From a virus: a DNA stretch of 32,695 nucleotides. How positions within the stretch are numbered: position 1 is the first letter of the stretch; every line of letters starts with the position of its first letter. The notes under the pieces are model-generated. The model was not told the DNA's origin. It did no database searches and was given only the letters and a program-made list of their open reading frames with translations. The position numbers and the translations under genes are program-made. The stretch spans positions 1-32,695 of IMG/VR virus record IMGVR_UViG_3300041417_000036, one strand, 5' to 3'. Positions 3,246 through 30,277 of this stretch are shown here, piece after piece.

Positions 3246-3842
3246 TCAAGCCGCCAAACGGTAGATAAACCGATGTTTCGACACGCGCGCAATTCGCTTG
3301 ATCGTGACGCCTTCCGGCACATGCCCTCGTCGGCTGTACCGCTTGCCGGCGTCGGCGTCGGCGTAGTCGAAGCGTGGCGTCTTGCGCTCTTGGTCCGTGC
3401 GACCGTCCGCAATCCAGTTGGCGGCCTTGTAGATCGTGCCGCCATGGCCCGCCGAAGGATCAGCATAGGAAACCAGAACCCGAACCAGCGGGCAGTTCTG
3501 CCGGATGTATTTGACGGCCTTGGCGATCAACCAGGTTTCGGCGTTCTGCGGAACCGAATCGTCAAGCCAGAGCCGAGCAAGTTCCCATGTCTTCCCGCCG
3601 TATCGCTTCGAGGTTTCGCGCGGCGGCAACGCAAAGACCACGATGCCGATAAATTCGTTCCATGCGTCTTTCTTCCGCATTCCGAGGATCAGCGTACAGA
3701 CGCCGGGCCATTTGCCGATGTAATGGCGCTTAATCATCGCGTCGCCTTCGACGCGCCCGATGCGCTCAATCAGGCAGTCCGCCCGCCACGCCTTATCGAA
3801 TACCGGACAATCAGGCTTCACGTTTTGCCGCCTTCCGCGCAT
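3246..3842 (-). CDS. mom: Mom-like DNA modification protein
   Basis: A 198-residue protein resembling phage Mu Mom, the GNAT-fold enzyme that converts adenine in DNA to N6-(methylcarbamoyl)adenine and so blocks many restriction enzymes. Family signatures: HYIGKWPG (40-47), GIVVFALPP (66-74), ELARLWL (87-93), PQNAETWLI (98-106) and the characteristic SYADPSAGHGGTIYKAANW (125-143). The start at 3842 has a clear AAGGGG Shine-Dalgarno. No Com-like translational activator is seen beside it, unlike Mu, so control would differ. It sits alone between two nuclease genes of the replication operon with a 19-base gap upstream. The family call is strong; the exact base modification is inferred. Confidence 0.8.
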   Translation of the reverse strand: MRGRRQNVKPDCPVFDKAWRADCLIERIGRVEGDAMIKRHYIGKWPGVCTLILGMRKKDAWNEFIGIVVFALPPRETSKRYGGKTWELARLWLDDSVPQNAETWLIAKAVKYIRQNCPLVRVLVSYADPSAGHGGTIYKAANWIADGRTDQERKTPRFDYADADAGKRYSRRGHVPEGVTIKRIARVSKHRFIYRLAA

Positions 3843-3861: not shown

Positions 3862-4563
3862 TCATGCTCGCCTCCCGTTGTTCTCGCAAGACAGCACGTC
3901 GCAATGCTTCTGGCACAGCCCGCTGCGCCGCTTCTCCCACTCCCTCGCCGCCAGATCGCGCTCGATGTCGGCGGCGAGCGCGCGCACCTTGAGCAGCGTC
4001 GCCTTCACGTCCGACAGGTCGTAGGGGGCCGACAAGCCGGTCTCGTAGCAGTAGTGCCCGACGACCTTGCTGCGCATGCCCTCGTTGCACGCCAGCAACA
4101 GCGCGCCGATCTCCAGCTCGAACGGGTCCTCGTACTTGCTGCTGCCGGACTTCCAGTCGAGCAGGAAGGCATGGTTGTCGCTCAGCAGGGTCACGTCGAG
4201 CTTGCCGCGCAGCCACGCCGCGTCATCCCAGAAGTCGCACCCCGCCCCGCCGGCCGTGATGGCGAGGCGTTGCTCGACCTTGGGACGACGGCCGTCGAAC
4301 GGCGCCGCCCAGCGCTCCCACGCCGCCATGTCGTCGGGGAGAGGTTTACCCGCCGCCAGGCGGGCCTCGAGGGCGGCGTGCACGGCGTTGCCGCGCTTCA
4401 TCGCGTCGGTCTCGACGAAGGGTAGGGACTTGAGCACGTAGCGCTGCTGGAACTGCTCGGGGCACGTCTGGTAGCCCTTGAGGTTCGAGAAGGTGTAGAC
4501 AAGGCGCTTGCCCGCCTTTGGCGGGCGGCGGTCGAGGGCGGCGGGGATGTCGGGCATGGTCAT
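3862..4563 (-). CDS. Cas4-like PD-(D/E)XK exonuclease, probable Fe-S protein
   Basis: A 233-residue RecB/Cas4-type nuclease. Visible in order: FSNLKGYQTCPEQFQQRY (25-42), RGNAVHAALE (57-66, with the motif H62), LRGKLDVTLL (D123), and LLDWKSG with D136-x-K138 as the D/E-x-K pair. Cysteines at 34, 217, 221 and 226 form the one-plus-three pattern that holds a 4Fe-4S cluster in Cas4 and AddB. A role in end resection or recombination fits its place next to the DNA polymerase. The start is ATG at 4563, overlapping the stop of the 49-residue gene (ATGA), rather than a more distal in-frame start at 4599. A 17-base CCCGCC/GGCGGG palindrome lies in its coding region. Confidence 0.82.
   Translation of the reverse strand: MTMPDIPAALDRRPPKAGKRLVYTFSNLKGYQTCPEQFQQRYVLKSLPFVETDAMKRGNAVHAALEARLAAGKPLPDDMAAWERWAAPFDGRRPKVEQRLAITAGGAGCDFWDDAAWLRGKLDVTLLSDNHAFLLDWKSGSSKYEDPFELEIGALLLACNEGMRSKVVGHYCYETGLSAPYDLSDVKATLLKVRALAADIERDLAAREWEKRRSGLCQKHCDVLSCENNGRRA
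4510..4526. repeat. GCCCGCC-nnn-GGCGGGC palindrome, coding copy
   Basis: Perfect seven-base arms with loop TTT, inside the Cas4-like nuclease gene. It is one of at least eight related palindromes dispersed in the window (see 8032, 8085, 8119, 13614, 17659, 20656 and 21338). Confidence 0.6.
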
Positions 4564-4709: not shown

Positions 4710-6573
4710 AACAATCCCCCAACCCACCGTCACAATCCAGCGGGAGCCCGGGGAGCCACGCCACCTCGCGCGTCATCTCCCGCTTGCACGCTTCGAGCGT
4801 GCGCTCCGCGTCCGGCCCCTTGGGGATGAGCAGCAGCAGCTCATCGTAGGGATAGTTGAGCGTGCGGATGCCCATCTGCCTGATGCGCACCATCGCCTGG
4901 GTAACGATCACGCGGCTCACGGCCTCGCAGATGTTCTGCACGAGCTTCGAGCCCCACATCGCCTTCCACCCTTGGCGCACGCGCACCCGCCAGTAGCCGC
5001 CGCGCTCGTGCTCGCGACAGGGCTCGCCTTCCTCGGGGACGTGATACTCCAAGGTATCGTAGACGACGCAGCAGCCGTTGGGAAGGTAGAGGCGGTGGTC
5101 CTTGACGAGCAGCGGACCCCATTGCAGCGGCTCGCCGCCGGCTAGGCGCGCGATCATCTTGTTGGCCTGCGCCCAGTACCCGGTGCGCGGCGCGCATACC
5201 GACGGGGTATCCTCACGGTAGAGGCGCACGAACTCGGTCGCGTCCTCGATGCTCATGTCGACGGGCGGACCGTAGAGGCCGTTCTTGGCGGTCTTCTTGA
5301 ACTGCTTGGCGCCGGCGCCGTAGCCACACATGAGCCGGCCCTGCTTGCCCATGCCGCGCTTGGCCTCCATCTCGGCCTTACGAGGGTCGTCGGCTTTGGG
5401 CTTGTAGATCGGCTCGCCGTAGAACTTGGTGGCGATGTCGGCGTAAGGATCCTCGTGGTTGCGGAACTTCTGCAGCACGGGCTCGTCAGGGCCGCCCGCG
5501 AGGTAGTGAAGGACGCGGCACTCGATCTGAGCGGCATCGATCGGCGCCAGCCAATAGCCCTCGGGCGCGAGGAGCGCGCGGCGAATCGGGCTCTGCCGCT
5601 TCATGTTGAGGAAGTTCGTCTTGTCACCCCCCGAAGGTCGCAGCGTCCCGGCGCCCGAGTAGTTGAGATAGACGCACAACGGCCCCCTGCTCGCCATCCA
5701 CCCGAGCGTGGCGGCACGCGTCTGCATGATGGTGGACTTCTCGCCGAGCCGCGCCTCGGCCAGCGCGCGCACGCGATCGTCGGCGTCGTCGAGCAGGTCG
5801 CGCATGAAGTCGTCGGTCTTGGCGAACGCCGGGATCGGGCCGTTCTTGCCGGCCTTGTACTCGATCTCCACCCCCTCGGCCTCGAGGAGAGCAGCGAAGC
5901 GCTCGGCGCTCTGGAGCTCGGCGGGGTCGATGCCGAGATTGGCGGCTCGGGTGCTTTTAGCACCCTCCTCGGCCTCCCATATCTGGCGCAGCAGCGGGCG
6001 GTCGGCGCGCAGAACGGGCTCGGTGAACATCTTGAGGGTCTCGTCGAGGACGAAAAACTCCTCCGCAGGAAAATCCTTGGCGAACATGCCGAATAGCTTG
6101 TAGATGCTCTCCACCTCGTCGCAGCAGCCGTCGGCCACCTGTTGGCGCGTGTCGGCGCTCATCTCGTTCCAGCGCTTGCCGCGGAACAGGTTGTAGGGCG
6201 TGGTCTTGGGCGCGAGCCCGAAGTAACCGCGCACCTTGTCGAGCGCCGCGCTGCGCCACGTCCCGTGCAGCATGCGGAACATCGCCATCGGGCAGATGAG
6301 GAGCTTGGGGTGGACGTCGTAGTGGTGGGAGAGGATGAGCCCGTCGAATTGTGCGTGCCACATGACGAGCGCCACGTCACTCCAATCCTCCTGCGCCAGC
6401 ACCCACCGCAGTTGCGGCTCGTCGTACCAGCGCGCGTCGACGCTCGGGCTCCACTTGATCGCGGCGCCGTGGGCCTGGAAGCGCTCGTCCCTGATATAGT
6501 GCTCAGTGGAGAGTCGCGACAAGGTGTAGTCGTCAGCAAAGAACGTCTCGAAGTCGAGGACGACCAACCTCAC
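4699..6573 (-). CDS. DNA polymerase, family A (Pol I/T7-like)
   Basis: A 624-residue replicative polymerase with a 3'-5' exonuclease domain and palm/fingers. ExoI is LDFETFF (D7, E9); ExoII is WHAQFDGLIL (D77); an ExoIII-like DEVESIYKLF lies near 152. Motif A is APIDAAQIECR (catalytic D346), motif B is KQGRLMCGYGAG (from about 410), and motif C is YPYDELLLL (D577, E578). In motif C, tyrosine replaces the usual histidine of HDE. The start is set at GTG 6573, which overlaps the upstream stop as GTGA and puts the exonuclease motif directly at the N-terminus; a longer frame to 6615 would add 14 unrelated residues. It works with the primase-helicase encoded divergently. Confidence 0.92.
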   Translation of the reverse strand: MRLVVLDFETFFADDYTLSRLSTEHYIRDERFQAHGAAIKWSPSVDARWYDEPQLRWVLAQEDWSDVALVMWHAQFDGLILSHHYDVHPKLLICPMAMFRMLHGTWRSAALDKVRGYFGLAPKTTPYNLFRGKRWNEMSADTRQQVADGCCDEVESIYKLFGMFAKDFPAEEFFVLDETLKMFTEPVLRADRPLLRQIWEAEEGAKSTRAANLGIDPAELQSAERFAALLEAEGVEIEYKAGKNGPIPAFAKTDDFMRDLLDDADDRVRALAEARLGEKSTIMQTRAATLGWMASRGPLCVYLNYSGAGTLRPSGGDKTNFLNMKRQSPIRRALLAPEGYWLAPIDAAQIECRVLHYLAGGPDEPVLQKFRNHEDPYADIATKFYGEPIYKPKADDPRKAEMEAKRGMGKQGRLMCGYGAGAKQFKKTAKNGLYGPPVDMSIEDATEFVRLYREDTPSVCAPRTGYWAQANKMIARLAGGEPLQWGPLLVKDHRLYLPNGCCVVYDTLEYHVPEEGEPCREHERGGYWRVRVRQGWKAMWGSKLVQNICEAVSRVIVTQAMVRIRQMGIRTLNYPYDELLLLIPKGPDAERTLEACKREMTREVAWLPGLPLDCDGGLGDCYEK

Positions 6574-7180: not shown

Positions 7181-7810
7181 TCACGACACCCACCCCCTCA
7201 GCTTGGCGATCGCCTCGGCGTAGTCGAGCGCGGCGAGCACCTCGCGCCTGTTACCCTTGCCGGCCCAGTACGCGCGCCCTTCGGCCAGCGTCTTGTCCCG
7301 ACAGCCGACACGCACGCGCTGCTCGCCGGTCTCGAGGACGTAGGTGAGGGCGCACCAGCCGTTGGGATCGCCGAGTTGGAACAGGCCCTTGATCTTCCCA
7401 GTGCCCAGGTCCGCGCCGCGCAGGTCCGCGCCGCGCAGGTCCGCGCCGCGCAGGTCCGCGCCGCTCAGGTACGCGCCGCGCAGGTCCGCGCCGCGCAGGT
7501 CCGCGCCGCTCAGGTACGCGCCGCCCAGGTTCGCGGCGCTCAGGTACGCGCTGCGCAGGTACGCGCTGCGCAGGTCCGCGCTGCGCAGGTCCGCGCTGCG
7601 CAGGTCCGCGCCGCGCAGGTCCGCGCCGCTCAGGTACGCGCCGCTCAGGTCCGCGCTGCGCAGGTCCGCGCCGCTCAGGTACGCGCCGGATCCGACAGCC
7701 CAGCGCACAGCGAGGCCGCGCTTCGTTGCCTCGCTTGCGTCGTCGGCGCAATCGATGTCGGCGGTGAACTGCGTTTCGCCGCTGAAACGGTTCGTCACGT
7801 CGTATTTCAT
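7181..7810 (-). CDS. Pentapeptide-repeat protein (209 aa)
   Basis: Residues 42-141 are 20 consecutive pentapeptides of the form (G/S/A)-A-(D/Y/N)-L-(R/S/G), predicted to form a right-handed quadrilateral beta helix. Pentapeptide proteins such as Qnr and MfpA mimic B-form DNA and bind topoisomerases, but many have unknown roles. The flanking N-terminal 41 and C-terminal 68 residues are not recognised; the latter contains NGWCALTYVLETGEQRVRVG. ATG at 7810 has a strong AGGAGG Shine-Dalgarno. It is the first gene of the leftward operon, with a GC hairpin in its leader (7837-7856). Confidence 0.88.
   Translation of the reverse strand: MKYDVTNRFSGETQFTADIDCADDASEATKRGLAVRWAVGSGAYLSGADLRSADLSGAYLSGADLRGADLRSADLRSADLRSAYLRSAYLSAANLGGAYLSGADLRGADLRGAYLSGADLRGADLRGADLRGADLGTGKIKGLFQLGDPNGWCALTYVLETGEQRVRVGCRDKTLAEGRAYWAGKGNRREVLAALDYAEAIAKLRGWVS
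7388..7687 (-). repeat. 15-bp tandem repeat, 20 units, coding for pentapeptides
   Basis: Twenty near-identical 15-base units (on the plus strand like CAGGTCCGCGCCGCG), each encoding one pentapeptide. DNA identity is higher than the protein fold requires, with the same codons reused, which indicates recent expansion by slippage or unequal exchange. Copy number may vary among relatives. Confidence 0.9.
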
Positions 7811-7914: not shown

Positions 7915-7943
7915 ACGCTACATCACCCGTCAGGCACTGTCAA
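7915..7943 (-). promoter_or_regulatory. Possible leftward promoter of the replication operon
   Basis: On the minus strand TTGACA (7943-7938) is followed after 17 bases by TAGCGT (7920-7915). The -35 is perfect and the -10 poor (three of six), so activation or a different exact site is possible. It would transcribe the pentapeptide gene and everything to its left, for which no better promoter was seen in the interval. Confidence 0.35.
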
Positions 7944-7972
7944 GCGCATGGCAGGTATGCAGTAATTGCATA
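7928..7972. repeat. 45-bp palindromic element, intergenic copy
   Basis: The 36 bases 7937-7972 match 11836-11871 with one mismatch, and similarity extends to a shared CGTCA nine bases upstream. The element holds an inverted repeat (GTATGCA...TGCATA). On the minus strand it carries CGCTTGACA, a consensus -35. Seventeen bases further left on that strand is TAGCGT (7920-7915), a weak -10. This copy may therefore supply the promoter and operator for the leftward operon. The second copy interrupts a gene. Confidence 0.75.
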
Positions 7973-7988: not shown

Positions 7989-8174
7989 GAGCCCGCCGGG
8001 TGGAGCGGGCTCGAAGTCTTGGGAGGAAACACGCCCGCCAGAGGCGGGCGAGGAGAGCGTTGCACGTGCGGGTGGTGGGGTCAAGCCCGCCGCGAGGCGG
8101 GTCAAGGGGCTTGCCTTGCCCGCCGGGAGGCGGGAAGAATGCGAAACCCCGCCCGGGATGCCAGCCGGGCGGGG
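7989..8174. other. Array of five GC-rich hairpins between divergent operons
   Basis: Five perfect inverted repeats follow one another: 7989-8012 (GAGCCCGC arms, loop 8), 8032-8050 (CGCCCGCC, loop 3), 8085-8101 (core CCCGCC, loop 4), 8119-8134 (CCCGCC, loop 4) and 8147-8174 (CCCCGCCCGG, ten-base arms, loop 8). None is followed by a T-run. The stretch lies upstream of the primase-helicase gene; short frames through it are arginine/proline-rich and not convincing. It could be a structured leader RNA, a protein-binding site or a replication element. Confidence 0.7.
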
Positions 8175-8248: not shown

Positions 8249-10483
8249 ATGCTTCCTCCCCAGATCGAGCGATATCTCGCCGCTGGCTGGCGCGTCCTGC
8301 CGCTGCACGCGCCCGGCGCGCCGTGGTGGAAAACCGACATCGAGGAGGACCAGATCGGCAAGCGGCCGTGCGTGTCGCGCGGCGCCGACCCGCTGTGGGG
8401 CTCGAGCAATCGCGACGAGGCGATTCGCTGGGCGCGGCGGTGGCCGGGGTGCAACTGGGGGCTCGGCACCGGCGCCGGCCTCGTGGTGCTCGACCTCGAC
8501 AGCGCCGAGCAATGGGCACAGTTGCGCGAGTTGACGCTGCGCAACGCGCCGCTCCCACCCACCGCGATCGCGGGCACCGGGCGCAACCCGCTCGCCGCTC
8601 ACATCTACTTCGCAGGGGACCTCGACCGCTCGCCGCACCTGGGCGACATCCTGGTGCGCGGTGCGCGCAGCTACGTGGTGGCGCCACCAAGCATCCACAG
8701 AACCGAACAACCCTATAGGTGGCTTACCAATTTCCCGGTCGCGCCGCTCCCAGACTGGCTCAAGTCCTGCATCGAAACGTATGAAAAGCCTACCAAAACC
8801 GTCGCACTCCCACCTCCACCCGATTATATCATACGGCGCCAGCAGCTTAGCGGTGCACCCTCGCTCCTCGCGCGCGAGATCGCGTGGACACAGAGCCCGC
8901 GCACCCCCGAGCTGGAGGCGGAAATCAAGAGCGCGCTGCAAGCCATCCCACCATCGATCAAAATGCTGCCGTGGCTCGGCGTCGGTATGGCGCTCCACTC
9001 GCTCGGGTGGGGCGACGACCCGTTCGCTTGGTGGGTGGCGTGGTCGCGGTCGTGCGAGGAGAAATTCAGCGAGGCACGCTGTGAGAGCGCGTGGCGCAGC
9101 TTCGGCCGACGGACCAAGGGAGCCATCGGAATCGGGACGCTCTGGTTCCTCGCGACACGTCACGGGTGGGTGCGGCCCAACGCCGCACTCGGCGCCGCGG
9201 CCACGCCCGCCAGCGCGCGGATCAACGGCCACCACACCCCAACCCTGCTCCCGCCGGCGACCGCGCTCGAGGCGATCGAGTTCGACGTCAACAAGCGCGG
9301 GGTGCTGCCGACGTGCGTCAACGCGCGCCGCGCGTTGCGCAAGCTCGAGATCGCGTGCCGCTACGACACGTTCCACGAGCGCCTGCACGTCGGCGGGCGG
9401 GTGCTAGGGCAGTGGGCGGGTGAGCTCAGCGACCACGCCGACCATATGCTACGGGTGATAATCCAAGAAAAGTTCGGTTTCGACCCCGGTATGCAAAACA
9501 TCCACGATGCGGCGGTGGAGGAGTGCCTTTTATCGCCGTTCGATCCCGTGGTGGATTATCTCGCGCGCGTGGAGGGCGCGTGGGACGGGCGGGCGAGGCT
9601 CGGCGGGTGGCTCCACGCCTATCTCGGATCGCCCGGGGATGGCCTCACGGGCGCGTTCGGGAGGCTCACGGTGCTGGCGGCGGTGCGGCGGGCGCGGAGG
9701 CCCGGGTGGAAGCACGACGCGATCCTGGTGCTCGAGGGACCGGAGGGACGCGGCAAGTCTGCGGCGATCGAGATGCTCGCGGGCGCGGACAATTTTTCCG
9801 ACCAAGCGATATTGCTGGCCGACGACCGCCACCAGCAGGAGCTGATCCAGGGAGTGTGGCTTTACGAGATCGCCGAACTCGTCGGCAAGTCGGCGGCCGA
9901 CATCGAGCGCGTGAAGGCGTTCGCGTCGCGCACCGTGGACCGGACCAGGCCGGCTTACGGGCGGTGCCGGGTGGACCGGCCGCGGCGGTGCGTGTTCGTC
10001 GCTACCACCAACAACGAGACGGGCACGTACCTGCGCGCGGAGGGCAACAGGCGGTTCTGGCCCGTGCCATGCGGTCGCATCGATCTGGAACGCCTCGCGC
10101 GCGATAGAGACCAGATATGGGGCGAGGCGGCAGCGCTGGAGGCGCGCGGCGCGACCACCACCCTTGATCCGACGCTGTGGGCGGCGGCGGGCGCGATGCA
10201 AGCGAGCAGGCGCGAGGCGGATCCCTGGGACGACCTGCTTGAAGTGCTCGACCTCAAGGGCACGCAGGGGGTGACGATCGCGCCAAGCGGCGATGGTCGA
10301 GGGCATGAACGACGCGTCAGCACCGGGGACATCTGGACGCTGCGGCTGCAGCTGGACCCCGGGCGCCTCACAACCGCAACATCGAAGCGCCTAGCGAGCG
10401 CGATGAAGCGACTCGGTTGGGACGGTCCAAAAAAGATACGCGGGCTGCTCGGCACGTATCGGGGGTATTCCAAACCGATCTGA
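8249..10483 (+). CDS. Primase-polymerase / VirE-type helicase
   Basis: A 744-residue replication protein. Residues 1-160 are a bifunctional primase-polymerase (Prim-Pol) domain: GWRVLPLH (13-20), WGLGTGAGLVVLDLDS with catalytic D82-x-D84, H118, and SYVVAPPSIH (141-150). A linker domain follows. From about 290 comes a VirE/D5-like superfamily 3 ATPase with Walker A LEGPEGRGKS (495-504), Walker B GVWLYEIAEL and a sensor-like CVFVATTNN. Such fusions prime and unwind at the origin. The ATG has AGGGG about nine bases upstream. It is the first rightward gene and is followed immediately by the iteron-rich candidate origin, a common arrangement. Confidence 0.9.
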   Translation: MLPPQIERYLAAGWRVLPLHAPGAPWWKTDIEEDQIGKRPCVSRGADPLWGSSNRDEAIRWARRWPGCNWGLGTGAGLVVLDLDSAEQWAQLRELTLRNAPLPPTAIAGTGRNPLAAHIYFAGDLDRSPHLGDILVRGARSYVVAPPSIHRTEQPYRWLTNFPVAPLPDWLKSCIETYEKPTKTVALPPPPDYIIRRQQLSGAPSLLAREIAWTQSPRTPELEAEIKSALQAIPPSIKMLPWLGVGMALHSLGWGDDPFAWWVAWSRSCEEKFSEARCESAWRSFGRRTKGAIGIGTLWFLATRHGWVRPNAALGAAATPASARINGHHTPTLLPPATALEAIEFDVNKRGVLPTCVNARRALRKLEIACRYDTFHERLHVGGRVLGQWAGELSDHADHMLRVIIQEKFGFDPGMQNIHDAAVEECLLSPFDPVVDYLARVEGAWDGRARLGGWLHAYLGSPGDGLTGAFGRLTVLAAVRRARRPGWKHDAILVLEGPEGRGKSAAIEMLAGADNFSDQAILLADDRHQQELIQGVWLYEIAELVGKSAADIERVKAFASRTVDRTRPAYGRCRVDRPRRCVFVATTNNETGTYLRAEGNRRFWPVPCGRIDLERLARDRDQIWGEAAALEARGATTTLDPTLWAAAGAMQASRREADPWDDLLEVLDLKGTQGVTIAPSGDGRGHERRVSTGDIWTLRLQLDPGRLTTATSKRLASAMKRLGWDGPKKIRGLLGTYRGYSKPI

Positions 10484-11475: not shown

Positions 11476-11970
11476 ATGAGGTACGATTGTCTTGCGGCTT
11501 TGGGTCGATTGGGGATCGCCCAGGACGACGCGGCGGCGCTGCGGCGCATTTCGATGACGCTGCATCGCTGGCACGAGCTCGAATGCGGCGACGGCAATGC
11601 GCACGGCTCCTGGGCGATCGTGCGCGGCCGCAAGGATTCGAAGGGGCGTTTCGTCCACGATGACGACGGGCGGCCCTACCTCGAGCACCATCACTATCGG
11701 CACGGCGCTGGCGAGGATACCGTCAGCCATGCGCTGCTTCCCGATCGCGAGCGGGGTGCGTTGAAGCGTCTTGCGCGGATCATGGATCGTTACGCGCCGC
11801 TGAGCTTCTACGTTCAGGGCGACAGTCGTCATGTGCTGTCAAGCGCATGGCAGGTATGCAGGAATTGCATACCGCGCGGTGCGGCGCTCTACGTGCTGCG
11901 GCCCGGTGACGTGCCCGCCGGCGAGGATCCGAGCTGCTACTACTCGCGCGGCATTGCGGTGTACCGATGA
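11476..11970 (+). CDS. Conserved phage protein (164 aa) with an in-frame repeat insertion
   Basis: It resembles a widespread phage protein of unknown function with the signatures LRRISMTLHRWHELECGDGN, then GRPYLEHHHY, PDRERGALKRLARIMDRY and RGAALYVLRPGDVPAGE. From memory of the family, YVQ-x-D-PRGAALY is normally continuous. Here 16 residues (117-132, SRHVLSSAWQVCRNCI), encoded by 11824-11871, separate D116 from P133. That segment is the second copy of the 45-bp palindromic element seen at 7928. The frame is kept, so the protein may still be made. GAGAGGGGA serves as Shine-Dalgarno. Confidence 0.7.
   Translation: MRYDCLAALGRLGIAQDDAAALRRISMTLHRWHELECGDGNAHGSWAIVRGRKDSKGRFVHDDDGRPYLEHHHYRHGAGEDTVSHALLPDRERGALKRLARIMDRYAPLSFYVQGDSRHVLSSAWQVCRNCIPRGAALYVLRPGDVPAGEDPSCYYSRGIAVYR
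11827..11871. repeat. 45-bp palindromic element, copy inside a gene
   Basis: Matches 7928-7972 (36 of the 45 bases contiguous with one mismatch). Contains the perfect inverted repeat GTATGCA-N5-TGCATAC when the following base is included. Its right end coincides with the point where the interrupted protein family sequence resumes. Confidence 0.75.
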
Positions 11971-13614: not shown

Positions 13615-13630
13615 CCCGCCTGCGGCGGGT
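13614..13630. repeat. ACCCGCC-nnn-GGCGGGT palindrome
   Basis: Perfect seven-base arms, loop TGC, between the CxxC gene stop and the next promoter; its last base is the first T of TTGACA. A member of the dispersed palindrome family. It may terminate or insulate but has no T-run. Confidence 0.6.
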
Positions 13631-14363: not shown

Positions 14364-14376
14364 TCGAGCCAACTTG

Positions 14377-14407
14377 AACCGGCCCTAACGGGGCCGGTTT
14401 TTCTTTG
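14377..14407 (+). terminator. Strong intrinsic terminator
   Basis: AACCGGCCC, loop TAACG, GGGCCGGTT: a perfect nine-base stem followed by TTTTTCTTT. It ends the early transcript 13 bases after the 14166 gene. Confidence 0.92.
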
Positions 14408-14925: not shown

Positions 14926-14963
14926 GCGACAAGCGAACCGGCCCTAGCGGGCCGGTTTTTCTT
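14904..14963 (+). terminator. Tandem hairpins: 11-bp stem, then intrinsic terminator
   Basis: First CTTGTCGCCTA, loop of eight, TAGGCGACAAG (14904-14933), spanning the stop codon of the 14725 gene. Then AACCGGCCC, loop TAGC, GGGCCGGTT (14936-14957) followed by TTTTTCTTTG. The second stem is the same sequence as the terminator at 14377. It stops rightward transcription facing the convergent HTH gene. Confidence 0.88.
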
Positions 14964-15291: not shown

Positions 15292-15683
15292 GGCGCCGAG
15301 CCTACTCCCGCGATCGAGGCGCGCTAGCCTGTGCACCGCGCCGCGGCGCTTTTCAGATCAAATTATTGTGATAGACACCGCGCCAGCGCACGGTACGCCC
15401 TTAAAGCGCTGTACCTTGGTTTCGAGCTCCCAGGCGCAAAGACCTTAGCTGCGTCAAGCGGTTAGCGGCGCGCGACGCGCCTGGTGCGCTTTCGATCGAG
15501 GCTCGGAGGGGCAAAACCGTTCGACCGAATCGCGCCTGTGACCTACCGTTCTGTACACAGGCTAAGGGTGCATGCCGCAGCGTAAAGCCCGCACCGATCG
15601 GCCCACGCGCAAGTGCGTATGAAGGCACCCCAACGTGTATCCCCTCCCCGGAAATTTTCTTTTTGATAGGTATCCCGCTACGC
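15292..15683. other. Intergenic region without a convincing gene
   Basis: About 390 bases between the leftward HTH gene and the promoter of the methyltransferase. The minus strand is open for 99 codons (15401-15700), but it lacks a ribosome site and overlaps the methyltransferase promoter. It contains several self-complementary stretches (for example GGCGCGCGACGCGCC at 15461-15480). No tRNA or terminator was recognised. It should hold the leftward promoter of the HTH gene; no good consensus was found. Confidence 0.5.
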
Positions 15684-15712
15684 TTGCCTCCCCGCCCCAT
15701 GTGCGCTACAAG
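15684..15712 (+). promoter_or_regulatory. Promoter TTGCCT-N17-TACAAG, possibly leaderless start
   Basis: The -35 is at 15684-15689 and the -10 at 15707-15712. The predicted transcription start falls on or next to the A of the ATG at 15720, and no Shine-Dalgarno precedes that ATG. Related sites occur at 16658, 17592, 21681 and 25065. Confidence 0.55.
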
Positions 15713-15719
15713 CGACTAC

Positions 15720-16661
15720 ATGCCCACCCCGTACCTGATCGCCACCGGCGACTGTCGCGCCTTGCTCCCACGCATGGCGCCCGAGTGCATAAATTGCATC
15801 GTCACGAGCCCACCTTATTGGGGCTTGCGCGATTACGGCGTCGCCGGCCAGATCGGGCTCGAAGCCAAGCCCGACGACTATGTTGCCCAACTAACCGCCA
15901 TCTTCCGCGAAGCGCGACGCGCCTTGCGCCCTGATGGGACGCTCTGGCTAAATCTTGGAGACAGCTACGCGGGAAGCGCTAAAGGTGGCAACCCTGGGCA
16001 CTCGGAGCATATCAAGCAAAAAATTAACGAGGGATCACTAACTGTGCGAGATCGCGTGCAGTTAACGCCCGAATTAAAACCCAAAGACCTCTGCGGCATC
16101 CCCTGGCGCGTCGCGTTCGCCCTCCAGGCCGACGGGTGGTATTTGCGGCAGGACATCATCTGGCACAAACCCAATCCCATGCCTGAGAGCGTCATGGATC
16201 GCTGCACCAAGGCGCACGAGTATTTGTTCTTGCTAAGCAAGAGCGAGAAGTATTACTATGATGCGCAGGCGGTAAAGGAAGATGCCGCGCCCGCTAGCGC
16301 TGCTCGTTATAATTACGCTTTTGGCGGTGCTAAATCCGAACAGCTAACCGCAGAGGAAGCAGCTGGCCCGGGGACGCGCACGCACCCGATTGGGGAGCGA
16401 AAATCGGATGGCAAGCGCAACAAGCGCAGCGTCTGGACCGTCGGCTCGGCTCCCTTCCGTGAAGCTCACTTTGCCACCTTCCCGCCCGCCCTCATCGAGC
16501 CCGCGATCCTCGCTGGCTGCCCACCCGGTGGCGTCGTCCTCGACCCCTTTGGCGGCGCCGGCACCACCGCCCTCGTGGCGACCCGCCTCGGCCGCCGCTC
16601 GATTACGATGGAGCTCAACCCCGCCTACGTCGAGATGGCCGAGCGCCGACTGGCTCGTTGA
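15720..16661 (+). CDS. DNA methyltransferase, N6-adenine/N4-cytosine, beta class
   Basis: A 313-residue amino-methyltransferase. The catalytic motif IV TSPPYWGLRDYG comes first (near residue 29) and the SAM-binding motif I DPFGGAGTTALVA comes near the C-terminus, so the order is that of the beta class, as in many stand-alone phage enzymes (DNA_methylase family). It would transfer a methyl group from SAM to an amino group of A or C in DNA and could protect phage DNA or tune expression. No partner restriction gene is present. Start at 15720 (MPTPYLIATGD); an upstream in-frame ATG at 15699 overlaps the promoter. Confidence 0.9.
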   Translation: MPTPYLIATGDCRALLPRMAPECINCIVTSPPYWGLRDYGVAGQIGLEAKPDDYVAQLTAIFREARRALRPDGTLWLNLGDSYAGSAKGGNPGHSEHIKQKINEGSLTVRDRVQLTPELKPKDLCGIPWRVAFALQADGWYLRQDIIWHKPNPMPESVMDRCTKAHEYLFLLSKSEKYYYDAQAVKEDAAPASAARYNYAFGGAKSEQLTAEEAAGPGTRTHPIGERKSDGKRNKRSVWTVGSAPFREAHFATFPPALIEPAILAGCPPGGVVLDPFGGAGTTALVATRLGRRSITMELNPAYVEMAERRLAR

Positions 16662-17658: not shown

Positions 17659-17675
17659 GCCCGCCTTCGGCGGGC
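17659..17675. repeat. GCCCGCC-TTC-GGCGGGC palindrome in a leader
   Basis: Perfect seven-base arms, flanked on both sides by GCAGCGCC-like sequence. In the untranslated leader between the 17592 promoter and the RHH gene; a member of the dispersed family. Confidence 0.6.
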
Positions 17676-19393: not shown

Positions 19394-20679
19394 ACCGCAT
19401 CGCCCTCGCGTTCCTCACCAAGGATAAAGTCGACCTCTCGGTCCAGTCGATCGAGCCCCTTCTCGACATCCCCGGCGTGGACAGCTGGTGGATCGACGGC
19501 AGCGATACCGTGGCGGGGCAGAAGCTGCCCCTGATGTACCCGGTGGTGCGCGCGGTGCGCAGCAACATCCGCGGCGGTCCTGATGCCGCTGTCTGCTACG
19601 CTTTGACCGAGATGCTCGCGCAGAGTTGGGACGGCAAGGGCAACGGCGTAGGCTATGACTACGTCGGCATCGTGGAGAACGACGTCCTCCTTGACCCCAA
19701 CTGGTTCCCCGACACCTTCTCTTTGTTCGAGCGCGCCCGCGACTTCGGCCTCGAGGCCGGCATGGTGAGCGCTCGCGCTTACGAGGACCGCGTGCTCGCT
19801 CAGGTCGACGATACCTTCGCCCTGATGCACAACCTCGGCTACGGCATGTTCATCGCCACGCGCCAAGCGGCTCAACTCTGGCTGCGTCATTTCCGCACCT
19901 GCCAGGCGATCGAGAACCGCCGCATGTTCGCCCAGCTCGCCGGCGTCGACATCGCGTCGTTCTGGGCGTTCGGCGCCCAGCAGTGCGGCCTCGTGAGCGA
20001 CTGGCACGTCGGCACGGTGCTCGCCGCCCACGGCCTCGCGTGCCTCGCCCTGACCCCTGCGCGCTGCCGCATGATCGGCCAGGACCCGCCGCTCGATGAG
20101 CAGGGCCTCGTGCTCGCCACCGGCCCCGTGCATCACGACATCATGTACGGTCCCGAGCCGATCGTTCGGCGTTTCGGGATCCGTACCGCGCGCATCCGCG
20201 CATGTGTCGAGATGCTGGATGGAAGGCAGGTGGCGGGGACGTGGCGCCCCGGCGGCGCCGACCTGCACCAGCCCCAGCCCGACGGCACCACCGTGATCTT
20301 CGCCCATCAGCTCGCCGGCCTGGGTGCCGAGTGGAGCGACAGCTGGCGACTCGCTCGTGGTCCCGGCCCGTTCTCGTGGCGCGCCGCCGAGCCCGAGGCT
20401 ACCCTGCAGGTCGAGCTCTGCGGCCCCATCGTCTTCCTGCTCTCAGGCCCCGGCCGCGCCGCTATCACGCAAGCCGGCTACGAGACCAAGCCCGACCTGC
20501 CAGAGGGCGACATCGCCAGCGTCCTGCTCCCCGCCGCCGTGTCGTGCCGCCCCGTGATGCTCACGGCGCTCGACGCCGGGGTGACGGTGCACGGCATCGT
20601 GGTGCGCGAGCCCCAACCCTCCATCCCCGGGTGGAGCTTCGATTGGAACGCTTTACCCGCCGCAGGCGGGGAGGAGTGA
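19390..20679 (+). CDS. Glycosyltransferase-like protein with C-terminal beta domain
   Basis: A 429-residue protein. The first 240 residues look like a GT-A transferase: NRIALAFLTKDKVDLSVQSI, later YDYVGIVENDVLLDPNWF, where E96-N-D98 takes the place of DXD. After residue 290 a beta-rich domain (SFDW, RLARGPGPFSW, ATLQVELCGPIVFLL) resembles a carbohydrate-binding or jelly-roll module. Start at 19390 is fixed by ATGA overlap. The last codons contain one CCCGCC/GGCGGG palindrome (LPAAGG). Which sugar and acceptor are used is unknown. Confidence 0.65.
   Translation: MNRIALAFLTKDKVDLSVQSIEPLLDIPGVDSWWIDGSDTVAGQKLPLMYPVVRAVRSNIRGGPDAAVCYALTEMLAQSWDGKGNGVGYDYVGIVENDVLLDPNWFPDTFSLFERARDFGLEAGMVSARAYEDRVLAQVDDTFALMHNLGYGMFIATRQAAQLWLRHFRTCQAIENRRMFAQLAGVDIASFWAFGAQQCGLVSDWHVGTVLAAHGLACLALTPARCRMIGQDPPLDEQGLVLATGPVHHDIMYGPEPIVRRFGIRTARIRACVEMLDGRQVAGTWRPGGADLHQPQPDGTTVIFAHQLAGLGAEWSDSWRLARGPGPFSWRAAEPEATLQVELCGPIVFLLSGPGRAAITQAGYETKPDLPEGDIASVLLPAAVSCRPVMLTALDAGVTVHGIVVREPQPSIPGWSFDWNALPAAGGEE
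20656..20670. repeat. CCCGCC-GCA-GGCGGG palindrome, coding copy
   Basis: Lies in the last codons of the 19390 gene, read in frame as PAAGG. Same frame phase as the copy at 21338 (PAEGG). Confidence 0.55.
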
Positions 20680-20680
20680 C

Positions 20681-21697
20681 ATGCGACGTTGCCTCGTCCT
20701 CGGCGCCAACGGCCATCTGAGCGTCGCCCTCGTCAACCACCTCAAGGCCGAGGGCGCTTTCGTGCGTGCCGTCGGCCGCGGCTCGGCCCGGCACCTGTCC
20801 GACGCCGACGAGTACAACCGCGCCGACCTGCGCTTCGATGCCCCGCCGCGTCACTTCGAGGATATCGACGAGGTCTATCAGCTGGCCGCCGAGGTGGGCG
20901 GTCTCGGCTACATCCAGGACCGGAGCAACGATCTCAAGATTTTAACCGCCAACACCCTGATCAATCTCAACGTGCTCGAGGCGTGCGTGAGCGCGCGCGT
21001 CGGCCGCGTGTTCTTCGCCTCGTCGGCGTGCGTGTATCCGGCGCTCTACGAGCCCGATGGCGTGCATTTTCATGCCGCAACCCTCTACATGAGGGATGGC
21101 AGCGTAGTGGAGAAGGATTTCGGACGCTACGCCGAGACCGATGCCTACCCCGCAAACCCGCAGAACGAGTTCGGCTGGAGCAAGCTCTACTGCGAGCGCA
21201 TCTACGACGCCTACAGCCGCACCTACCCGCTCCCCGTGCGCATCGGTCGGCTGCATCAGGTGTACGGCCCCAGGGCCGAGTGGCGCGAGCCGCGCGCCAA
21301 GGTCGTCGCCTCCCTGTGCCGCAAAATCGCCGAATTGCCCGCCGAAGGCGGGGAGGTCCCCATCTGGGGTGACGGCAGCCAGCAGCGCTCGCTCACCTAC
21401 ATCACCGACGCGGTGGAGGGGATCGTGCGCCTCATGCGCAGCGAGGTGATCGGGCCGGTGAACCTGGGGTCGGAGGAGGCGGTGGACGTCATGAACCTTG
21501 CCAAGGTGCTCGGCGCGATCGCAGGCAAACCCCTGCGGATCGTCCCATCGCCCGGTCCCGTCGGCGCCCGGGTGCGCTTGTGCGACGGCACCCTCGCGAA
21601 GGAAAAGCTCGGGTGGACCCCGAGCGTGCCGTTCTGCGACGGCCTCGTCTCCACCTACGACTGGGTGCAGCGACAGGTGCTTGCGCAACGCCGCTGA
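20681..21697 (+). CDS. NAD-dependent sugar-nucleotide epimerase/dehydratase
   Basis: A 338-residue extended SDR protein. The Rossmann motif is GANGHLS (8-14); QLAAEVGGLGYIQD matches GDP-mannose 3,5-epimerase-like enzymes; SSACVYP (114-120) holds the catalytic Ser/Cys region; ETDAYPANPQNEFGWSKL (152-169) matches the active-site helix. The YxxxK motif reads F164-GWS-K168, so the catalytic tyrosine is replaced by phenylalanine. Later GRLHQVYGP and GDGSQQRSLTYI are typical. It probably makes or alters the sugar nucleotide used by the neighbouring transferases, if still active. GGAGG lies before ATG. Confidence 0.85.
   Translation: MRRCLVLGANGHLSVALVNHLKAEGAFVRAVGRGSARHLSDADEYNRADLRFDAPPRHFEDIDEVYQLAAEVGGLGYIQDRSNDLKILTANTLINLNVLEACVSARVGRVFFASSACVYPALYEPDGVHFHAATLYMRDGSVVEKDFGRYAETDAYPANPQNEFGWSKLYCERIYDAYSRTYPLPVRIGRLHQVYGPRAEWREPRAKVVASLCRKIAELPAEGGEVPIWGDGSQQRSLTYITDAVEGIVRLMRSEVIGPVNLGSEEAVDVMNLAKVLGAIAGKPLRIVPSPGPVGARVRLCDGTLAKEKLGWTPSVPFCDGLVSTYDWVQRQVLAQRR
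21338..21352. repeat. CCCGCC-GAA-GGCGGG palindrome, coding copy
   Basis: Inside the epimerase gene, read in frame as PAEGG. A member of the dispersed family. Confidence 0.55.
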
Positions 21698-30154: not shown

Positions 30155-30277
30155 TTGCGCGCAGGACCGTAGCTGGCGCCGATTGAAAAAACAAGGGATT
30201 TTCCAGAGCGTCGCAATCGGCTGCCCTCGGGCGGCCAACCCGTCACCCGATGGGTCGACGAACTGGAGAAGCACCCC

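Follow-up and report, generated by a model that had tools for sequence, protein, structure and literature searches.

Most hairpins clustered between divergent phage replication operons belong to a genome-wide family of short GC-rich inverted repeats

The DNA analysed here (the window) is a viral record of 32,695 bases that represents a partial genome of an uncultured phage. Between its divergent replication operons, at 7989-8174, lies an array of five hairpins. The main point beyond the earlier note on this region is that most stems of the array are members of a family of inverted repeats, CCCGCC-N3-5-GGCGGG, dispersed through the genome. In our best explanation, to which we give about an even chance, the array is where members of a phage-wide set of very short DNA hairpins lie clustered, each a folded site kept by selection. 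Dispersed palindromes have been noted in phages before, without explanation. Here, limited loop lengths, a loop consensus, compensated stems and the absence of any strand preference suggest that selection acts on a folded DNA hairpin. If true, this would add a hairpin-defined class of signal in double-stranded DNA phages and would show DNA structure acting as a constraint on coding sequence.

Five non-overlapping perfect inverted repeats are present in the array, as had been reported:

7989-8012, no strand assigned: hairpin 1, 8-bp stem, loop of 8; CCCGCC-GGGT-GG(A)GCGGG, a copy of the dispersed hairpin bulged by one base
8032-8050, no strand assigned: hairpin 2, 8-bp stem, loop of 3; exact copy CCCGCC-AGA-GGCGGG, stem lengthened by CG..CG
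8086-8101, + strand: hairpin 3, 6-bp stem, loop of 4; exact copy CCCGCC-GCGA-GGCGGG, GNNA loop on the + strand
8119-8134, + strand: hairpin 4, 6-bp stem, loop of 4; exact copy CCCGCC-GGGA-GGCGGG, GNNA loop on the + strand
8147-8174, - strand: hairpin 5, 10-bp stem, 8-base loop, then TTTCGCATTCTT on the - strand; terminator-like, facing the leftward operon

The claim that this is denser than random sequence should give was borne out: none of 5000 simulations of local composition reached five hairpins (mean 0.59), one of 60 whole-window Markov simulations did, and no other array-independent 186-base stretch of the window holds four or more. The folding check proposed at the time also came out positive, with none of 200 dinucleotide shuffles as stable as the region on either strand (z of -4.5 on the + strand and -3.95 on the - strand). 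Its location between divergent replication operons was likewise confirmed, with a Prim-Pol/VapE primase-helicase gene running rightward at 8249-10483 and a leftward operon on the other side, headed by a pentapeptide-repeat gene (7181-7810) and also encoding a family A DNA polymerase, a PD-(D/E)XK exonuclease, a Mom-like gene and an SNF2 helicase. The reported lack of any T-run holds for the + strand and not for the - strand, where three of the five hairpins carry short T-rich tails (TTTCGCATTCTT, TGTTTCCTCC, CCTTTTCCTC). No named phage showed DNA similarity to the array region.

An unbiased ranking of all 6-base arms placed CCCGCC/GGCGGG as the top inverted repeat both in the window and in the complete 64.9-kb genome G002, which has a 100-bp terminal repeat. 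The window holds 10 copies of CCCGCC-N3-5-GGCGGG against 0.14 expected, G002 holds 35 against 0.29, and a further relative, G001, holds 2; the three are colinear phages of one group. The reversed pattern, a control for composition, occurs in none of them (0 in each), and this control together with synonymous shuffles rules out plain enrichment through GC content or codon usage. The replication/early part of G002 is richer in copies than the rest (23 in 24.9 kb versus 12 in 40 kb, p=0.001 for a boundary picked after inspection). Outside the array, the copies in the window and one paired variant are:

100-116, no strand assigned: CCCGCC-TTGCT-GGCGGG, within a leftward ORF
4349-4364, + strand: loop GCCA, in the exonuclease gene, where most of 15 homologues align gap-free
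4511-4525, no strand assigned: loop TTT, near the exonuclease N-terminus, in an indel-prone stretch
13615-13629, - strand: loop TGC (GCA on the - strand), intergenic by the script's gene calls; also in G476
17660-17674, - strand: loop TTC (GAA on the - strand), intergenic
20656-20670, + strand: loop GCA, in the final codons of a rightward gene
21338-21352, + strand: loop GAA, in an epimerase-like gene, encoding PAEGG
30239-30254, no strand assigned: paired variant CCCGTC-ACCC-GATGGG

Inside called genes we counted 27 of the 35 copies in G002 and 5 of the 10 in the window, against 0.65 and 0.34 in synonymous-codon shuffles; genes were called by a simple script in place of a standard annotator, which makes the in-gene fractions approximate. 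The GNNA loop is on the coding (sense) strand in 16 cases and on the non-coding (antisense) strand in 18, and this missing strand bias speaks against a function of the family at the RNA level. The same random orientation sets the family apart from the stoperators of Cluster A mycobacteriophages, which are also many short dispersed phage sites but are oriented with transcription (PMC4351075).

Loop length is tightly bounded. Loops of 0-2 bases are absent, loops of 3-5 account for nearly all copies, and loops of 6-12 occur as one stray in the window and two in G002. Loops of the form GN..A/TN..C make up 28 of 35 in G002 (p=5e-20), 7 of 10 in the window (p=2e-5) and 5 of 8 in an unrelated viral record, G020. 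GNA loops with sheared G-A pairs are known to form very stable DNA mini-hairpins (PMC6479982 and references therein); the window shows no generic excess of GNA hairpins with any stem (3 of 34). The stems of the main family are almost all one sequence, and the evidence for stem covariation comes mainly from 8 variants and a 17-copy sister set in G002, not from the window. Single uncompensated stem mismatches in G002 are at chance (4 vs 3.2 expected), whereas single compensated pair changes are in excess (8 vs 0.97, Poisson p=8e-6). The sister set, CCCGC-N4-GCGGG with GNNA loops (L022-L025), has 17 copies against 0.44 expected; its outer neighbours are Watson-Crick in 14 of 17, with four pair types (0 of 20,000 shuffles were as good), and the pair beyond them is formed in only 4 of 17. 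The outer pair covaries, and total stem length thus stays at six. In the main CCCGCC family no extra covariation was seen at the 7th pair, which is slightly depleted in G002; there, 19 of 35 copies are flanked directly by a T on one side and a C on the other (12.9 expected, p=0.03), which makes the 7th position prone to mismatch.

The unit we propose is a 6-bp, near all-GC stem with a loop of 3-5 bases, mostly GNA or GNNA on one strand. The site would act as DNA, folding when strands separate in replication, in recombination or in a supercoiling-driven cruciform, and a putative phage or host protein may recognise the stem together with the sheared G-A loop. Such recognition of the folded form would have selection keep the hairpin exact. 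Between the divergent primase and polymerase operons, the array could group several such sites, at high occupancy, next to a conserved terminator-like hairpin, and replication, recombination and packaging are candidates for the process served. A fuller version, in which the sites are written in DNA shape and a protein of replication or recombination reads them folded on either strand, with selection on them shaping coding sequence, is one that we offer tentatively, as possible and still less probable than the cluster reading itself. The promoters of the phage N4 virion RNA polymerase are short, small-loop DNA hairpins that are read as folded DNA. The CCCGCC family would resemble them in being a short hairpin read in folded form; nothing here pointed to a giant virion polymerase or to a promoter function.

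A primase search in viral contigs gave no relatives and a polymerase search gave 16. At 99.99% over 21.9 kb, G476 and the window represent one and the same phage; all four CCCGCC copies in the overlap are conserved, and the 21 kb past the window adds one. In the window and in G002 alike, the epimerase-like gene carries an exact hairpin copy at the same codons. In strain G478, which is 94-98% identical, an exact CCCGCC-ACCC-GGCGGG stands at window position 30239, where the window has the paired variant; the two differ by three substitutions, in the arms only, with the same loop and no indel, and pairing is kept if G-T is allowed. This change is what hairpin maintenance predicts, though at a single site and with a loop, ACCC, outside the GNNA type.

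Beyond the group, other viral records retrieved by motif pairs mostly have one or two copies. The only dense one is G020 (18 kb), with 8 copies including arrays of three; a protein search showed it to have no relation to the window. Its two arrays of three (L198, 6446-6578 and 13605-13695) lie among GTCCCTT repeats. Only three genomes are dense, and G001, with the same layout, has 2, so the hairpin site is not essential to the group. Nothing on a CCCGCC stem in phages was found in the open-access literature searched. In 398 sampled Pseudomonadota genomes the GN(N)A form reaches at most 12 copies per genome, and phage density is far higher. Inheritance from a host genome background was considered, and these counts argue against it, though the phage's own host may have a very high density. 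Some other bacteria have dozens of copies, among them the cyanobacterium SM2_1_6 (88 in 4.4 Mb) and an Oscillospiraceae genome (33 in 1.8 Mb). In SM2_1_6 (L054, L056, L066 and other loci) we observed MITE-like repeats of more than 50 bases with the core TTTCACCCGCC-GNA-GGCGGGTGAAA, and in Ignavibacteriales arrays of TTTCACCCGCCGCAGGCGGGCAAGCCACT.

In distribution, the closest known system is the 17-bp palindrome of Corndog (Cluster O mycobacteriophages), which has 34 invariant copies with a variable centre, about a third of them in coding regions, is unoriented to transcription and is of unknown function (PMC4351075). More than 30 copies with invariant arms and a variable centre are common to both (35 in G002, and 10 in the partial genome of the window). 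Corndog's spacer, however, is always 3 bp and its arms are 7 bp (TGTTCGG), whereas the CCCGCC family has loops of 3-5 with a GNA/GNNA consensus, tolerates compensated stem changes and has a second stem version.

The main rival to a selected hairpin is a REP-like palindrome, non-autonomously mobile or spread by gene conversion, parasitic and proliferating in some lineages, with the array formed by local duplication. Bacterial REPs are likewise short hairpins (stems of 5-13 bp) that occur in clusters and in many copies, some of them intragenic (PMC3733652). Copy number in the phages depends on lineage (2, at least 11 in the known parts of the window phage, and 35), and similar TTCA-flanked hairpins are repeated in bacteria, either MITE-like (SM2_1_6) or in arrays (Ignavibacteriales). 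Many in-gene copies sit in variable, indel-prone linkers, as expected of insertions; others align gap-free with homologues in conserved genes (window 4349, G002 54069 and 60435), which, with the in-place change between strains, speaks against insertion and for a site maintained where it stands. Decayed single-mismatch copies are not above chance, and the family sits in a phage. Its flanks are TGAA, CGAG, CAAG or similar and bear no GTAG or CGTC tag, CTAC abutting only two G002 copies, and its copies lie mostly in genes in G002 and half in genes in the window, whereas REPs are mainly extragenic. The RAYT/Y1 transposase (PF01797) is absent from the five records searched (G000, G001, G002, G020 and G025), the window being a partial genome. 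Together these points weigh against a REP-like element, which we regard as rather unlikely and yet the foremost of the alternatives.

Intrinsic terminators with CCCGCC/GGCGGG stems are known. The array might be a set of terminators or insulators that separate the divergent operons and for the most part face leftward, while the dispersed copies would serve as weak terminators or stabilise mRNA ends. The T-rich tails on the - strand of three array hairpins fit this, and hairpin 5, whose tail lies on that strand and which ends 75 bases before the primase start, resembles a terminator. Stems of the same kind, read by eye, face the same way upstream of the primase in both relatives: at 5941-5970 in G002 (AGGCCCCCGG..CCGGGGGCCT, then TCTTCTT) and at about 63590 in G001 (GCCCTGCC..GGCGGGGC, then TTTCTTTTTT). 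Most dispersed copies, however, have no T-tract, lie in genes and are unoriented to transcription, so that termination would account for hairpin 5 and not for the CCCGCC family, and as an account of the whole we find it improbable. On this comparison we take hairpin 5 to be a probable conserved terminator or insulator and the other four to be a cluster of the dispersed family. In the control region of the relatives the CCCGCC family is absent from G001, which has the same divergent layout, and present as one copy in G002, and the array is therefore not a conserved origin or leader. On the same grounds, a second replication element conserved in the group finds no support.

A protein-binding array comes nearest among the three functions that the earlier note had suggested. 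In its conventional form, the hairpins would be operators for a dimeric protein that binds double-stranded DNA, as has been proposed for the Corndog palindrome, and exact arms, a variable centre and a dispersed, partly intragenic distribution are shared with that system (PMC4351075). A spacer that varies from 3 to 5 would rotate the half-sites about the helix, which argues against a rigid dimeric operator, and neither the loop consensus nor the compensated stem changes are expected of a helical one. We consider this form highly unlikely; loops of 3-5 and kept pairing make the sites better read as hairpins in single-stranded or cruciform DNA than as double-helical operators.

A structured 5' leader RNA, acting as an attenuator or like a riboswitch for the primase operon, would suit the better-than-shuffled folding and would include the region if a promoter lies at about 7970, but an Rfam search with the array region gave no match, relatives have no homologous array, and the element occurs in genes in both orientations, leaving this suggestion very unlikely. 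Instead, the preservation of pairing and loop shape in genes and between them, whichever the strand, suggests a signal in the form of a DNA hairpin.

Several other features of the window were observed. First, the pentapeptide-repeat gene at the head of the leftward operon is built of 15-bp units, and G001 has a repeat-rich, unrelated-looking ORF near the matching place. Second, a 45-nt repeat containing the palindrome TATGCA-N5-TGCATA occurs at 7928-7972 and 11827-11871 in copies that are 91% identical; the copy in the control region adjoins a TTGACA-like leftward promoter box, the other sits within an ORF (11476-11970), and the repeat could be an operator or a captured piece of a gene. Apart from the window, the only record in the viral collection that contains its exact 25-mer core is another one of this phage. 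Third, two near-identical terminator-like stems (GAACCGGCCCTA..GGGCCGGTTTTTC) lie 559 bases apart, at 14376-14401 and 14935-14960. Lastly, the Mom-like DNA-modification gene (3246-3842) adjoins the exonuclease and polymerase genes, and a DNA methyltransferase gene is located at 15663-16661.
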